This document shows, in pieces, positions 1,358 to 48,551 of a DNA stretch of 58,487 nt (within the stretch, counting starts at the first letter, position 1; each line of letters starts with the position of its first letter). The DNA comes from Kushneria aurantia DSM 21353. GTDB taxonomy: Bacteria > Pseudomonadota > Gammaproteobacteria > Pseudomonadales > Halomonadaceae. The notes under the pieces are model-generated. The model searched no databases. It was given only the letters and a program-made list of their open reading frames with translations, and was not told the DNA's origin. The DNA lies in assembly GCF_000382245.1 (NCBI RefSeq), contig NZ_KB907884.1, positions 1-58,487 on the forward strand, written 5' to 3'. The position numbers and the translations under genes were made by a program.

Positions 1358-1739
1358 TGGTGGAGGCGGGGGGAGTTGAACCCCCGTCCGCCGGCACTCG
1401 TCCATCAGCTCTACATGCTTAGGTCCGTCTTCTGGTTTAGCCGCATCGGCTCCGACGGGCAGGATCCGATGCTGCGATTTCTCTTTGTTTTAGCGCACGA
1501 TGCGAGAACAACACCGAACGCGATCCTGTCAGCTTTGGCTCGTCGCCCCGTTACGATGAACAGGCACATCGCTTCGGGGTAAGAAGGTTACCAGCAGGGT
1601 TTATGCTGCCAGCGCGCCCTCTTGAGCATAGTTTTCGTCGTTTGCGACTATTTTAAAGTAACGTGGTATTTACGAGATACGTTACGCTCTCGGCATGCAC
1701 CTCAGGATCTGCAACCGGCGTCGAATCCATAACGCCCCC
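1358..1739 (-). ncRNA. ssrA: Transfer-messenger RNA (tmRNA, ssrA)
   Basis: A 382-nt tmRNA that rescues stalled ribosomes with SmpB and tags incomplete proteins for degradation. The 5' end GGGGGCG pairs with CGCCTCC in front of the ACCA 3' end. The 5' domain contains the expected GGATTCGACGCCGG-type segment, and the T arm carries GGTTCAACTCC. The tag-reading frame (about 1606-1650 on the minus strand) decodes as ANDENYAQEGALAA followed by TAA, a typical gammaproteobacterial tag ending in ALAA. It has its own promoter just upstream and its own terminator. smpB lies immediately upstream on the same strand, the common pairing. The CCA is encoded. Confidence 0.97.
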
Positions 1740-33137: not shown

Positions 33138-33224
33138 GCCGAAGTGGTGGAATTGGTAGACACGCTATCTTGAGGGGGTAGTGGCCTTACGGTCGTGCGG
33201 GTTCAAGTCCCGCCTTCGGCACCA
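33138..33224 (+). tRNA. tRNA-Leu (anticodon GAG)
   Basis: An 87-nt class II tRNA with encoded CCA. The acceptor GCCGAAG pairs with CTTCGGC, the anticodon stem CTATC/GGTAG holds the loop TTGAGGG (anticodon GAG, reading CUC and CUU), and a long variable arm is followed by GGGTTCAAGTCCCG. It lies between secG and tRNA-fMet, as in Pseudomonas. Confidence 0.97.
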
Positions 33225-33336: not shown

Positions 33337-33413
<77 letters not shown>

Positions 33414-42204: not shown

Positions 42205-42549
42205 CTACCGCCCGCGTGGTGATATCGCCAGGCCGAGAAAAACCAGCATGGCCTGATTGAGGCGAAGCATCTCTTCATCATCCAGCCGTCCTGTTCTGTC
42301 GCCCAGCTTCGATTTTGCCACAGTGGTGATCTTGTCGACCATCAGGCATGAAGTGACTTGCAGGCCATTGCGCTCGTTGGGGGCGATAGGCAGCCGAAAC
42401 AGCGGGGCCTCGGTGGTGTCGGAGGTGAAGGCGCAGAGGGTAAGCGAATCCGTGGCGTCGAAACTGTTATCCTGAACAATGACGGCTGGGCGTGGTTTGC
42501 CTGCATAATGTGGTCCTCCCGCCACTGTCCATATCTCGCCGCGCTTCAT
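42205..42549 (-). CDS. MazF/PemK-type endoribonuclease toxin
   Basis: A 114-residue toxin of the MazF/PemK/CcdB fold. The N-terminal MKRGEIWTVAGGPHYAGKPRPAVIVQDN is the classic signature; TSCLMVDKITTVAKSKLGDRTGRLDDEEM covers the second conserved region. Such toxins cut mRNA at short sequences and are neutralised by the partner antitoxin. ATG 42549 overlaps the antitoxin stop as ATGA; TTG 42561 in the same frame is less likely. The pair sits between pnp and panC, outside the conserved gene order, and looks like an insertion. Confidence 0.88.
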   Translation of the reverse strand: MKRGEIWTVAGGPHYAGKPRPAVIVQDNSFDATDSLTLCAFTSDTTEAPLFRLPIAPNERNGLQVTSCLMVDKITTVAKSKLGDRTGRLDDEEMLRLNQAMLVFLGLAISPRGR

Positions 42550-42770
42550 TCGCCGGGCCAATCGGATACTGACTCGATAAAGGCCTGATCATCGCTGGTA
42601 CGATCACTTTGCGCGACAGCCAGCGACTGACGATGCGCTTCGGCCATGAAGGATGGTGCCCGTACATCCGGTACCCAGATCTGTATCGGGCGCAGCCCCC
42701 GCGCACGCAGTCTGGCGCGATATTCGCTGACTTTCCGGCTCGAGGAGCTTGAATCCGTTCGGGATGCCAT
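42546..42770 (-). CDS. MazE-like antitoxin
   Basis: A 74-residue protein of the kind annotated as antitoxin MazE-like (DUF3018). It has a Ser-rich N-terminus, then SEYRARLRARGLRPIQIWVPDVR, the family hallmark, and an acidic C-terminus (DDQAFIESVSDWPGE) suited to binding the basic toxin. CTAGGAGGG precedes its ATG. The toxin gene overlaps its stop. An inverted repeat just upstream, spanning the ribosome-binding site and the likely promoter, is a candidate autoregulatory operator. Confidence 0.82.
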   Translation of the reverse strand: MASRTDSSSSSRKVSEYRARLRARGLRPIQIWVPDVRAPSFMAEAHRQSLAVAQSDRTSDDQAFIESVSDWPGE

Positions 42771-44583: not shown

Positions 44584-45066
44584 TCAGTCGGCCAGGCGCT
44601 GCAGCCCTTCGGCGCGCTGTGTCGCCGCCAGCGCGTCGAGGCGGCGGCCGTCGGGCAGAATCATTTCGGGCGCTATCTCGCGCAGCGGCAGCAGCACGAA
44701 GGCGCGCTGATGCATCTGCGGGTGCGGCAGTGTCAGCCGCGGCGTCTTTAGTTGCCGGTCATTGTACAGCAGCAGGTCGAGATCCAGAGTGCGCGGTCCC
44801 CAGTGGCGATCGCGCACGCGGCGGTGGCGCTGCTCCAGCGCCTGCAATTGGTCAAGCAGCGCCAGCGGCGACAGGCCGGTTTCCAGCTCGGCCACGGCAT
44901 TGATGAAATCCGGTTGATCCTGCGGGCCGAGCGGTCGGCTGGCATAGCAGGAGGAGGCGCCGGTGCGACGGGTCAGCGGCAGTTGATCGAGCTCTTCCAG
45001 GGCTGTTTCAACCTGGCGGCGTGGATCGTCGAGATTGCTGCCCAGACCGATCCAGGCGCGGTTCAT
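44584..45066 (-). CDS. folK: 2-amino-4-hydroxy-6-hydroxymethyldihydropteridine diphosphokinase FolK
   Basis: A 160-residue enzyme that pyrophosphorylates the pterin precursor for FolP (the folP gene is at 29459). IGLGSNLDDPRRQVE is the N-terminal motif and RHWGPRTLDLDLLLYND the catalytic and metal-binding signature, with LPHPQMHQRAFVLLPL further on. The start overlaps the pcnB stop by 4 bp, indicating translational coupling. Confidence 0.96.
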   Translation of the reverse strand: MNRAWIGLGSNLDDPRRQVETALEELDQLPLTRRTGASSCYASRPLGPQDQPDFINAVAELETGLSPLALLDQLQALEQRHRRVRDRHWGPRTLDLDLLLYNDRQLKTPRLTLPHPQMHQRAFVLLPLREIAPEMILPDGRRLDALAATQRAEGLQRLAD

Positions 45067-46412
45067 TCGTTGCCCTGCGGCGGCCCGCGACGCCGGCGCC
45101 GGCGCCGTGGCTTGCGACGCGGCTGGGGAAGGCTTTCCGGCGCAGCCTGTTCGGCGTCATCGTCATCGCTGCCGGCGCCGCTTTCGACTTCTTTGACCAT
45201 GTCGCGCTGGGTCTCTTCGCCGGCGTCCTGAAAGCGGGTCCACCAGTCGCCCAGGCCGGGGGCCAGTTCACCTGCGGATTCGCGCAGCAGCAGGAAGTCG
45301 TAGGCAGCGCGAAAGCGTTGATGGGCCAGCGTCTGGAAAGGGCGTTTGCCGCGTCGGCGCGGTAGTGTCAGCTGCATGTCCCAGATTTCACGCATGGGGA
45401 GGCTGAAGCGTTTGGGAATGGAGGTGTGCTGTAACTGGCGGCCGATCACCTGCTGTCCGGCCTGCTGCGCGGCGGGCACTGGCGGTATGCCGTCGGCAGT
45501 GAGGCGATTGGTGCTGTAGACCACGGCCGGCCACAGCAGCGCGCCGTAGAGAAAGGCCGGCGTGACCGGCTTATCGGCGCGGATGCGTGCGTCAGTGTTG
45601 GCCAGTGCCTGCTCGACCATCGGTAGCGCCCAGTCGAGCTGCTCGAAGGACTCCTCGGTAGCGGGAAAGAGCATGGCGAACAGCCCATAGCGTCGCAGAC
45701 CGTGAAAGGTGTCGAGGGCGTACCCGGAGAGAAAGAGCTTGAGTACTTCCTCGAAAAGCCGTGCCGGCGGAATCTGCAACAGCAGATGGGCGTAGTCGTG
45801 CAGCGGCGCTTCGGTATCTTCGGCCAGTGCAAAATCGAACCTGGCGGCGAAGCGCACCGCACGCAGCATCCGTACCGGATCCTCACGATAGCGCTGCGCC
45901 GGAGCACCGATCAGGCGCAGCAGGCGGTGTTCGAGATCCTCGATACCGCCGGTCCAGTCATGGATGGCGAAATCGCGGATGCTGTAGTAGAGCGCATTGA
46001 CGGTGAAGTCGCGGCGCATGGCGTCCTCGTCGACGCTGCCCCAGACGTTGTCGCGCAGTAGCAGGCCCTCCTGTGACTGCTGGGCGTGACGTTCGGCTTC
46101 CTCTCCCTCATGACCGCCGCGAAAGGTGGTGACCTCGATAATCTCGCGGCCGAAGCGCACATGGACGATACGAAAGCGGCGGCCGATGATACGGGCGTTA
46201 CGAAAGACGCCACGCACCTGCTCGGGCGTTGCATTGGTAGCGACATCGAAGTCCTTGGGGACCTGACCGAGCAGCGAATCACGCACGCAGCCGCCTACAA
46301 GGTAGGCCTCGAAGCCGGCCTGGTCGAGACGATAGAGCACCTTCAGCGCGCTGTCGCTGAGCATTCGACGGGAGATGGGGTGCTGGTCGCGAGGGAGGAT
46401 GGTGGGCGTCAA
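45063..46412 (-). CDS. pcnB: Poly(A) polymerase I PcnB
   Basis: A 449-residue class II nucleotidyltransferase that adds 3' poly(A) tails and so marks RNA for decay. AYLVGGCVRDSLLGQVPKDFDVATNATPEQV holds the head-domain motif with the catalytic Asp pair. RRDFTVNALYYS and YREDPVRMLRAVRFAARF follow. The basic tail (RRKPRRRRRRRG) suits RNA binding. The start is not clear: TTG 46412 gives PTILPRDQHPISRR, which aligns with E. coli, and a stop lies upstream in frame; ATG 46364 is shorter. The sRNA gene at 46546-46992 lies upstream on the same strand. Confidence 0.93.
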   Translation of the reverse strand: MTPTILPRDQHPISRRMLSDSALKVLYRLDQAGFEAYLVGGCVRDSLLGQVPKDFDVATNATPEQVRGVFRNARIIGRRFRIVHVRFGREIIEVTTFRGGHEGEEAERHAQQSQEGLLLRDNVWGSVDEDAMRRDFTVNALYYSIRDFAIHDWTGGIEDLEHRLLRLIGAPAQRYREDPVRMLRAVRFAARFDFALAEDTEAPLHDYAHLLLQIPPARLFEEVLKLFLSGYALDTFHGLRRYGLFAMLFPATEESFEQLDWALPMVEQALANTDARIRADKPVTPAFLYGALLWPAVVYSTNRLTADGIPPVPAAQQAGQQVIGRQLQHTSIPKRFSLPMREIWDMQLTLPRRRGKRPFQTLAHQRFRAAYDFLLLRESAGELAPGLGDWWTRFQDAGEETQRDMVKEVESGAGSDDDDAEQAAPESLPQPRRKPRRRRRRRGPPQGNE

Positions 46413-46545: not shown

Positions 46546-46574
46546 AAAAAACGGGGAGGCCGTTGGCCTCCCCG
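46546..46574 (-). terminator. Intrinsic terminator of the CrcZ-like RNA
   Basis: Minus strand: CGGGGAGGCC-aac-GGCCTCCCCG, a perfect 10-bp stem, followed by six T residues. It separates the sRNA from pcnB. Confidence 0.88.
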
Positions 46575-46992
46575 CGAATGAATGCCCTGTTTTATTTTCG
46601 TGATGGCTCATCGCCCTGAATACGTACCATGTTCATCAGCAAAGGGTTCAGCGCGCTGTTGTTGTTGTGATGTTTCGATAAACATCTCGTATTCAAAACG
46701 ATCTTCCATGACGATAGCCATTGGCTGCTCCGATCTCTTGTTGTTGTTTCGGAGTGTCGTGAGGCGGCATTGTTGTTGTTGGACCGTCCTGCGTTGACAT
46801 CGCATATCGACCCGGAGCGCTTTTGTTGTTGTCTGCTCCGTCTGGCGTTTTCAGGGAACAACCCCGACGCCCGAATGTCCGGCTGGGATATTGTTATTGT
46901 TCCGGGTTGCCGTAACCCTGCAGGTGTCTCTTTTTTGTTGTTATTGAAAAACGCCTGCCTGTGAAGCGCTGTTTGTTTTTGTTGCGCGTTCA
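46546..46992 (-). ncRNA. CrcZ-like small RNA (Hfq/Crc decoy) with seven CA-motif clusters
   Basis: The transcript-sense strand contains seven clusters matching AANAANAA, the CA motif bound by Hfq with Crc. They lie at about 46984-46972, 46946-46931, 46902-46890, 46832-46821, 46780-46770, 46749-46738 and 46668-46659. Several sit in or beside hairpin loops, for example CGGAGC...GCTCCG around the cluster at 46832. A sigma54-type promoter predicts a start near 46992 and a strong terminator ends it near 46546, giving about 445 nt. Pseudomonas CrcZ is about 407 nt, sigma54-dependent and encoded directly upstream of pcnB, as here. The role, relief of catabolite repression by titrating Hfq, is inferred by analogy. 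cbrA and cbrB are not in this locus. Confidence 0.82.
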
Positions 46993-47002
46993 CTTTATAG
47001 AG

Positions 47003-47018
47003 AGCACAAGCTGTGCCA
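47003..47018 (-). promoter_or_regulatory. Sigma54 promoter of the CrcZ-like RNA
   Basis: Minus strand TGGCACAGCTTGTGCT: a perfect -24 element TGGCAC, with GG and GC 10 nt apart as required, and a -12 element GTGCT against the consensus TTGCW. The 190 bp upstream (to gluQ) is AT-rich. It holds the space for an enhancer-binding protein such as CbrB, for example around the TTGTTAC at about 47133, but no site is asserted. Confidence 0.72.
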
Positions 47019-47210
47019 GTTTCTTGTTTTATCCTTTTATTTCAAAGGCTTTTAGGTTTTTTAAAGCAGCGTCTCGCAGCCTGCAGGGCTATTTTGATGC
47101 CTTTTTGCACGATTTTGGTGCTTTCTGTGTAACAAGGATGTGTGCTGGTGCAAGGCTGTGCTCAGCATACCCTGCACTCGGATCGGGAAAAGGCGACGAT
47201 GGTCGATAGT

Positions 47211-48113
47211 TCAGCCGCCGTGGTGGCTGAGAGGCCCCGCCGGCAGGGCGTCGGGTCGCCAGCCTGCCAGGGCAGCGTCGAGCTGTTCACGGATTGGTGT
47301 GGCGGCCGACAGCGCCGGCTGCGCAAGCAGCGTCAGTGCCTCGAACAGCAGGGCGCGCGCGGCTGTGTCATCGGTTGGCAGCGCGGTTGCGAGGTTCTGT
47401 TTGGAGAGTTTCTGGCCGTTGTCGGCCACTGCCAGCGGCAGATGCAGGTAGTGCGGCGTGGGCCAGCCCAGCGAGCGCTGCAGCAGAATCTGCCACGCGG
47501 TGTTGTCGAGCAGATCGGCACCGCGCACTACATCGGTGATGCCCTGCTCGAAATCGTCGGCGACGACCGCCAGCTGGTAGGCCCACAGGCCGTCGCGCCG
47601 TCTCAGGATCACATCGCCCAGGGTGGCCAGCGACCAGTGCTGCAGGCCCAGACGGCGGTCGTGCCAGCTAACGATATCGTCGCCGCAGTCAGTACGCAGC
47701 CGCCAGGCGCAGTCGCGCCCGGGCTCGCTGACGCCGCTGCGGCACCAGCCGGGATAGACCCGATAGTCGCGCCACTGGCGACGTGAGCAGCTGCAGGGGT
47801 AGGCCAGCCCGGCATCGGCAAGGCGCGTCAGCGTATCGCGGTAGCGCCCTTCACAACGGCTCTGGTAGCGAATTTCGCCGTCGTGTTCGAGACCGAAGGT
47901 GGCCAGCTGCGCGATAATGGTGGCATCGGTACCGGCTGGGCAGCGCGGCGGATCGATATCCTCGATGCGCAGCAGCCAGCGCCCATCCCGGGCGCGTGCG
48001 TCAAGCCAGCTCGCCAGTGCCGCCAGCAGCGAGCCGAAATGCAGTGGCCCCGAAGGGGTCGGCGCAAAACGGCCGACCACCGCGGGGCCCGTGGGGGTCA
48101 TGACGGCAGGCAT
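47211..48113 (-). CDS. gluQ: Glutamyl-Q tRNA(Asp) synthetase GluQ
   Basis: A 300-residue paralogue of glutamyl-tRNA synthetase lacking the anticodon domain; it attaches glutamate to queuosine in tRNA-Asp. GRFAPTPSGPLHFGSLLAAL is the HIGH region and NGQKLSKQN the KMSKS-like loop. The zinc-binding CSCSRRQW...YPGWCR segment is present. ATG 48113 directly abuts the dksA stop (TGAATG); ATG 48101 is an alternative. The dksA-gluQ pair is conserved in gammaproteobacteria. In Pseudomonas cbrA and cbrB follow; here an 800-bp non-coding stretch with the sRNA follows instead. Confidence 0.95.
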   Translation of the reverse strand: MPAVMTPTGPAVVGRFAPTPSGPLHFGSLLAALASWLDARARDGRWLLRIEDIDPPRCPAGTDATIIAQLATFGLEHDGEIRYQSRCEGRYRDTLTRLADAGLAYPCSCSRRQWRDYRVYPGWCRSGVSEPGRDCAWRLRTDCGDDIVSWHDRRLGLQHWSLATLGDVILRRRDGLWAYQLAVVADDFEQGITDVVRGADLLDNTAWQILLQRSLGWPTPHYLHLPLAVADNGQKLSKQNLATALPTDDTAARALLFEALTLLAQPALSAATPIREQLDAALAGWRPDALPAGPLSHHGG

Positions 48114-48551
48114 TCAGCCTCCCAGCTGCTTTTCCTTGAGTTCGGAAAGCGTCTTGCAGTCGACGCACAGCGTCGCTGTGGGGCGCGCCTCAAGACGGCG
48201 GATGCCGATCTCGACGCCGCACGCCTCGCAGAAGCCATAGTCGTCTTCATCGATACTGTCGATGGTTTCGTTGATCTTCTTGAGCAGCTTGCGCTCACGG
48301 TCGCGGGTACGCAGTTCGAGGTTGAACCCTTCTTCCTGGGTGGCGCGATCGGCCGGATCGGCATAGTTATTGACGTCTTCCTGAAGGTGGCGAACGGTGC
48401 GGTCGACCTCCTCCATCAGCTCTTTCTTCCAGCTCAGCAGTATGTGGCGAAAGTGCGCCAGCTGCTGCTCGTTCATATACTCTTCGCCGGGCGCCGGCTC
48501 GTAGGGCTTGAAGGTGTCGAGAACGGATTCCTGCTTTTCGGCTACGGCCAT
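48114..48551 (-). CDS. dksA: RNA polymerase-binding transcription factor DksA
   Basis: A 145-residue secondary-channel factor that works with ppGpp to control rRNA and amino-acid promoters. A coiled coil (about residues 33-108) carries the tip segment NYADPADRATQEE. The zinc finger has C114 and C117 (FCEACG) and C135 and C138 (LCVDCK), so this is the canonical zinc-binding form. The ribosome-binding region is AGGATGCCTCAC-like on the complement and weak. gluQ follows without a gap. The leader contains two strong hairpins. Confidence 0.97.
   Translation of the reverse strand: MAVAEKQESVLDTFKPYEPAPGEEYMNEQQLAHFRHILLSWKKELMEEVDRTVRHLQEDVNNYADPADRATQEEGFNLELRTRDRERKLLKKINETIDSIDEDDYGFCEACGVEIGIRRLEARPTATLCVDCKTLSELKEKQLGG

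Follow-up and report, generated by a model that had tools for sequence, protein, structure and literature searches.

The salt-loving bacterium Kushneria carries a predicted crcZ-like RNA gene on the minus strand between gluQ and pcnB, and the explanation that best accounts for its sequence, one that we regard as probable when taken as a whole, is a CrcZ-type decoy that has lost CbrAB and whose promoter is most likely activated by NtrC. In Pseudomonas, CrcZ is a sponge RNA driven by CbrAB, which sequesters Hfq and Crc and lifts food-preference repression, and AAN repeats belong to the sequences that Hfq binds with its distal face. The stretch analysed here, referred to as the window, comprises 58,487 nt of Kushneria aurantia DSM 21353 (NZ_KB907884.1, positions 1-58,487), the whole genome being 3.75 Mb in size.

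Results

The predicted decoy RNA gene (46546-46992, minus strand) spans about 447 nt from the predicted +1 at 46992, placed 12 nt past the -12 element of the promoter, to the end of the T-run at 46546. An earlier note had described the array as bounded by a sigma54-type promoter and a strong terminator, and both were found at this locus on the minus strand: the promoter TGGCACAGCTTGTGCT, recognised by its sequence pattern, at 47003-47018, and a strong intrinsic terminator at 46546-46575, formed by a stem (46575-46551) and the T-run. With pcnB downstream (45063-46412; NCBIfam TIGR01942), gluQ upstream (47211-48113; TIGR03838) and dksA beyond it (48114-48551; NCBIfam), all on the minus strand, NCBIfam assignments confirmed the proposed gene order dksA-gluQ-(RNA)-pcnB-folK-panB-panC. 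Judged from its sequence context, the locus is the positional counterpart of crcZ. Elsewhere in the window, Rfam identified a tmRNA (1358-1739, minus strand) and two tRNA genes (33138-33221 and 33337-33410, plus strand), and a small ORF near panC (42205-42561, minus strand) resembles a MazF/PemK-type toxin by eye.

Seven A-rich clusters matching the pattern AANAANAA were confirmed on the minus strand of the locus, as had been claimed, at 46973-46983, 46932-46945, 46891-46901, 46823-46830, 46770-46780, 46738-46748 and 46659-46666, the last lying inside a conserved 3' helix; the opposite strand of the locus has none. Dinucleotide shuffles of the locus set the chance expectation at 0.67 ± 0.76 clusters, with a maximum of 4 among 2000. 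When both strands of the window were divided into 582 tiles, only four contained at least two clusters, three of which overlap the locus (8, 4 and 4 clusters) and one of which lies elsewhere (2 clusters). The 3.75 Mb genome contains the stricter pattern AAYAAYAAYAA at 7 places, and the RNA locus accounts for 4 of these; a reversed control is uninformative for this pattern because it is symmetric and reads the same backwards. The suggestion that clusters sit in hairpin loops held in part: the minimum-energy fold places most of them in loops, but their unpairedness does not exceed that of controls in which the cluster motifs were kept and the remaining sequence was shuffled (motif bases unpaired 0.903 vs 0.871 ± 0.046; 34 of 150 controls reach this value), and loop placement, which gave no sign of selection, was dropped as evidence. 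The RNA as a whole folds more stably than the motif-keeping controls (-143.4 vs -116.3 ± 6.3 kcal/mol).

Regions upstream of pcnB were compared across 117 genomes, 73 from the family of the window and 44 that each represent another family of the order, with the signature defined as a sigma54-type promoter followed by A-rich clusters within 60 nt. The signature is present in 71 of the 73 family genomes, the exceptions being G026, with several clusters and a degenerate promoter, and G032, which has no clusters, and in 30 of 43 genomes from other families (G116, with 149 nt upstream, was excluded). It was likewise found in 79 of 80 named loci (all but L196), including those of Pseudomonas, Stutzerimonas, Marinomonas, Microbulbifer, Gilvimarinus, Cobetia and Oceanospirillum. 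Among named relatives, Kushneria stands closest, with six loci whose PcnB is 75-84% identical. A terminator was called in 65 of the 71 promoter-bearing family genomes, with 5-9 clusters each, and in 20 of 30 rows from other families the terminator scan gave none or one weaker than the family's, so that the 3' end of the RNA is only putative there. The earlier note had held that loss of the motifs in close relatives would speak against its reading; they are retained, with CrcZ-type anatomy in all ten Kushneria genomes. An alignment of these ten with one neighbour genus (11 sequences) has most A positions of the clusters invariant while third positions and flanks vary, and the window lacks one cluster present in the other aligned sequences. 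By this sequence pattern, the clusters are kept by selection in relatives. Five other-family genomes (L088, L090, L092, L103 and L111) have tandem promoter-plus-array units, two each, upstream of pcnB, which resembles local duplication of a decoy.

A family-specific 3' domain (46593-46717, minus strand) encloses the last cluster by pairing (A)UUGUUUUGAAUACG with CGUAUUCAGGGCGAU; its helix joins 46702-46688 with 46624-46610 and continues with 46685-46680 against 46634-46629. Allowing up to one mismatch, the first helix block, (A)UUGUUUUGAAUACG, was detected in 64 of 65 family RNAs, G025 being the exception, and in none of 7 Pseudomonadaceae RNAs examined. In 30 family sequences selected for carrying the block, 97.6% of pair cells are kept vs 30.8-44.5% when the pairing is slid, and the covariation score of the helix lies above all 500 shuffles; pairs changed on both sides number 4, a count reached by 57 of 500 shuffles, and the main helix is nearly invariant. 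A covariance model of the domain built from 65 sources recovers the window and ten named family loci, with one copy per genome in the ten Kushneria, and finds nothing in 11 Pseudomonadaceae loci, in 40 other non-family loci or in G025, G026 and G032. As far as these sequences go, the 3' helix is near-invariant and peculiar to the family of the window, and the invariance of its sequence suggests that it may be more than a stem.

A search of the genome for crc, which had been proposed as a check, revealed a Crc-like protein, and Hfq is encoded as well. The Crc-like protein is found in 73/73 family genomes. Its best solved relative is 4jg3, named 'Catabolite repression control protein' (8.5e-70) and from P. 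aeruginosa; a chain named ExoIII (2myi) matches nearly as well (2.5e-69), and NCBIfam labels the protein exodeoxyribonuclease III (TIGR00633, above cut-off). By eye, the protein is without the nuclease motifs QETK, GDFN and SDH, all of which the ExoIII of the same genome keeps, and this absence is as expected of a predicted Crc. Among the 43 other-family genomes, signature and Crc occur together in 30, the signature alone in 0, Crc alone in 7 and neither in 6 (Fisher p = 2.8e-4); if the weak Crc matches of G088, G089 and G110 are treated as absent, these numbers become 29, 1, 5 and 8 (p = 7.0e-5).

Other readings of the region were weighed against this evidence. Lying directly 5' of pcnB on the same strand, it could be a long pcnB leader instead of a separate RNA, but the terminator called in most promoter-bearing family genomes, which in the window ends 138 nt before pcnB, makes a leader very unlikely. 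The minus-strand ORF 46592-46993 is open in the window and could encode a real, Asn-rich protein of 133 aa with the repeats as codons. The clusters, however, are spread over three reading frames (0,2,1,0,2,1,2 in the window) and are therefore not coding repeats, their frame order varies between relatives, and the ORFs listed 3' of the promoter in other Kushneria differ from this one; on the frame positions in the window and in relatives we rejected the coding reading, which we find barely credible. The RNA might instead sponge Hfq alone, or act on other sRNAs, without Crc, as AAN repeats bind Hfq unaided. We consider this improbable given that Crc is retained in every family genome, including the 23 without CbrAB, and that the signature is absent from all six other-family genomes without a Crc match, one of which (G074) is 75% complete. 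A decoy role of the RNA, indicated by its CrcZ-like anatomy and setting, is by contrast very likely.

CbrB was searched with a query protein encoded next to the RNA gene in a relative and with our own cut of 345 bits, which within the family falls in a broad gap, while in the other families G110 (346.7 bits, adjoining pcnB) stands barely above the best non-CbrB match (336.8). With absences resting on the candidates scored per genome (at most 14 for CbrB and 7 for CbrA), CbrB was found in 50/73 family and 41/44 other-family genomes, and CbrA (E at most 1e-80) in 38/73 and 36/44, respectively. Within the same numbers of candidates, neither protein was found in any of the ten Kushneria genomes. 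These ten, together with 13 genomes from six other genera, make up the 23 CbrB-less family genomes, and CbrA was found in none of the 23. Twelve family genomes have CbrB but no CbrA match reaching E 1e-80 (G010, G015, G020, G023, G027, G033, G038, G048, G052, G059, G063 and G069), where CbrB is perhaps an orphan response regulator and maybe marks a stage in the loss of the system. In the window gluQ lies directly upstream of the RNA, whereas in most relatives examined a CbrB-type activator gene (GAFTGA motif) stands in between. On a 50-row PcnB tree covering 48 of the 73 family genomes and 2 outgroups, rooted by midpoint and with deep forks unsettled, the distribution of CbrB takes 2 changes of state to explain (range 2-4 over bootstraps, with a single change in 1%). 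CbrAB has been called exclusive to Pseudomonadaceae in PMC8871633 and PMC6296734. Our survey contradicts this exclusivity, as CbrA and CbrB both occur well outside that family. Transcripts of cbrAB are reported from seawater metatranscriptomes (PMC5073097).

The sites upstream of the promoter follow the same division. The published CbrB site reads TGTTAC-N12-14-GTAACA-N15-19-GTAACA (PMC8871633), and 43 of the 49 family genomes with CbrB carry its outer subsites TGTTAC..GTAACA without a mismatch. Within the allowed spacing, two of the remaining six have 2 mismatches and four have 3, these four being three of the genus Cobetia and Terasakiispira, where TGTTAC and GTAAC are present at a different spacing. 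Among the 22 CbrB-less family genomes with a promoter, none has the subsites with at most one mismatch and one has them with 2, a level (at most 2) that shuffles reach in 3-6%; in all ten Kushneria the subsites are at least 3 mismatches off. The upstream region of the window contains a perfect GCAC-N7-GTGC palindrome, the proposed NtrC site GCACCAAAATCGTGC (47107-47121, minus strand), which we take to fit the NtrC consensus. This palindrome is perfect in 6/10 Kushneria, where it lies at -103 to -113 relative to the start of the promoter, vs 0.45% of shuffles, and imperfect in the other four, with one mismatch in G002, G003 and G007 (one of them at -134) and two in G004; at most one mismatch is seen in about 6% of shuffles. 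Because the ten Kushneria form one clade, these are not ten independent observations. Perfect copies are absent from the 12 other CbrB-less, 49 CbrB-bearing and 29 other-family genomes.

Thirty base pairs from the palindrome, on its upstream side, lies GCACCA (47146-47151, minus strand), which may be an NtrC-type half-site. GCACCA or its complement occurs in 9/10 Kushneria, 13/13 other CbrB-less genomes (the promoter of G026 being placed by hand), 33/49 CbrB-bearing genomes and 1/29 other-family genomes. Its spread across CbrB-bearing and CbrB-less genomes suggests that a nitrogen-type half-site may have been in place before CbrAB was lost; since it stands beside the CbrB site in the 33 CbrB-bearing genomes, it may also belong to something else.

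The genome of the window encodes three strong sigma54 activators and has three weak AAA matches besides, the strong ones comprising NtrC, above its equivalog cut-off (744 bits vs 559), a GlrR-like activator (756.8 bits vs a cut-off of 763) and a third without equivalog that we read as DctD-like. A search for the palindrome followed after 70-100 nt by a sigma54 promoter gave 18 matches in the ten Kushneria genomes (none in G002) and 0 in the reversed control. Six are at the decoy RNA, and 11 of the other 12 precede amidase, GntR/racemase, GntR/allophanate-hydrolase-like or NarK-family genes, identities that rest on one searched example per kind: the same amidase gene accounts for seven matches in seven genomes, two stand before a GntR-type regulator with an Asp/Glu/hydantoin racemase downstream of it, one before a GntR-type regulator with an allophanate-hydrolase-like amidase downstream (truncated at the locus end), and one before a NarK-family transporter (309.8 bits, cut-off 311.7). 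The second match in the genome of the window stands before a TRAP transporter, itself no obvious nitrogen gene. Beyond the decoy RNA, the combination thus appears to mark mainly nitrogen-scavenging genes in Kushneria. At glnK, used as a positive control in three Kushneria, a sigma54 element occurs with near-palindromes carrying one mismatch per site.

A genome that encodes NtrC and places a palindrome fitting the NtrC consensus 5' of a sigma54 promoter shows the sequence arrangement of an NtrC regulon, and we lean towards NtrC control of the decoy RNA promoter. The same decoy RNA could alternatively be switched on by another enhancer-binding protein, GlrR-like or DctD-like, with the palindrome being incidental; three strong activators of this class are encoded and the palindrome is imperfect in four of ten Kushneria, which speak for this, while the site pattern that we assume for GlrR, TGTC-N10-GACA, is present in 0/10 Kushneria upstream regions (220 nt) and the predominance of nitrogen genes among the palindrome-plus-promoter matches fits NtrC, so that we judge another activator unlikely. 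With CbrAB not found and the upstream sites pointing to NtrC, control of the decoy may respond to nitrogen and not to carbon. In P. stutzeri, most ncRNAs decreased in ntrC or rpoN mutants, according to PMC6606865.

Of the three AAYAAYAAYAA occurrences beyond the RNA locus, one falls on the ribosome-binding region of an ethanolamine permease gene (TIGR00908, 545 bits, cut-off 382), its end 11 nt short of the start codon; by eye, the other two fall in an rpsB-like coding sequence and at one unassigned spot. AANAANAA lies within 54 nt upstream of the aligned permease start in 9/9 Kushneria in which the gene was found (not in G004), and the A-rich arrays upstream of this start (loci L254 and L260-L268) were noted as candidate Hfq/Crc targets. 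The leader looks like that of an Hfq/Crc-repressed mRNA, which makes the permease mRNA a candidate target; ethanolamine is a nitrogen source, and its link to the decoy RNA is one that we infer.

Discussion

The proposed mechanism, in which transcription, Hfq/Crc binding, NtrC activation and the physiological effect of the decoy RNA are all inferred, would run as follows. A sigma54-dependent small RNA would be made from the locus, and its A-rich clusters would titrate the Hfq/Crc complex off catabolic mRNAs with A-rich ribosome-binding regions, the ethanolamine permease mRNA for example, whereby repression would be lifted. The ancestral promoter of the decoy RNA would have been CbrB-driven; in Kushneria, where CbrAB would have been lost, it would most likely be activated by phosphorylated NtrC, and the decoy RNA would be made on nitrogen limitation. 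In its broadest form, to which we give slightly less than even credence, decoys and CbrAB would be ancient across the order, the Kushneria decoy would have outlived the carbon sensor and been rewired to NtrC as a nitrogen-starvation switch with the aid of an NtrC-type half-site already present in the family, and the 3' helix added by the family would confer a second activity.

If true, a carbon catabolite switch would have been turned into a nitrogen-starvation switch, and Hfq/Crc decoy RNAs and CbrAB would not be a Pseudomonadaceae invention. In the other families, 30 of 43 genomes have the CrcZ-like locus and 41 of 44 have CbrB, which stands against the exclusivity to Pseudomonadaceae of CbrAB and its CrcZ output, as published in PMC8871633 and PMC6296734. 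Kushneria would offer a natural experiment, with the sensor gone and the decoy retained, in which the re-plugging of a global RNA decoy into a new signal is directly testable, and the ethanolamine permease provides a compact candidate target.

Compared with CrcZ (RF01675; also CrcY and CrcX), the Kushneria RNA likewise stands upstream of pcnB with a sigma54-type promoter and a terminator, has its first A-rich cluster soon after +1 and several AAN clusters, from which production of a decoy-class RNA is presumed, and occurs in a genome encoding both Crc and Hfq. In contrast, the genome has no cbrAB that we found, the CbrB subsites are lost and an NtrC-type palindrome is present, and the 3' helix, with its single copy per Kushneria genome, was not found in 11 Pseudomonadaceae loci. 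The Rfam CrcZ covariance test, which the earlier note had put forward, failed (12.4 bits vs a cut-off of 95, at the terminator end only), and an Rfam scan of the window at both thresholds made no CrcZ call; on 20 named loci the same model recognised 11/11 Pseudomonadaceae and 0/9 others. RF01675 is further described as a gene between cbrB and pcnB with a sigma54 promoter activated by CbrB; here gluQ is upstream and, while the promoter is present, neither CbrA nor CbrB was found in the genome. As the RNA fails both the Rfam model and these CbrB features, it is therefore a variant and not a member of RF01675, and the idea of a CrcZ homologue outside Pseudomonas stands in its CrcZ-type anatomy at the crcZ position and in its Crc and Hfq, but not in Rfam membership or in CbrAB.

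Titles and abstracts of the open-licence literature yielded no report of crcZ outside Pseudomonadaceae. Crc-dependent regulation outside Pseudomonas has been described for Acinetobacter sp. SK2 (PMC8312277), an account that, in the portions available, describes no decoy RNA, has CrcZ in its references only and leaves CbrAB to future work. The CbrAB system itself extended beyond Pseudomonadaceae in our survey and was not found in Kushneria; of the relatives' 80 loci examined, 63 have a CbrB-type gene 5' of this position, and most family genomes with CbrB carry the published subsites. NtrC-activated sigma54 promoters form a general class, which the Kushneria locus resembles in having an NtrC-type palindrome about 90 bp upstream of its sigma54 promoter and from whose usual members it differs in its predicted product, an A-rich protein-binding RNA.
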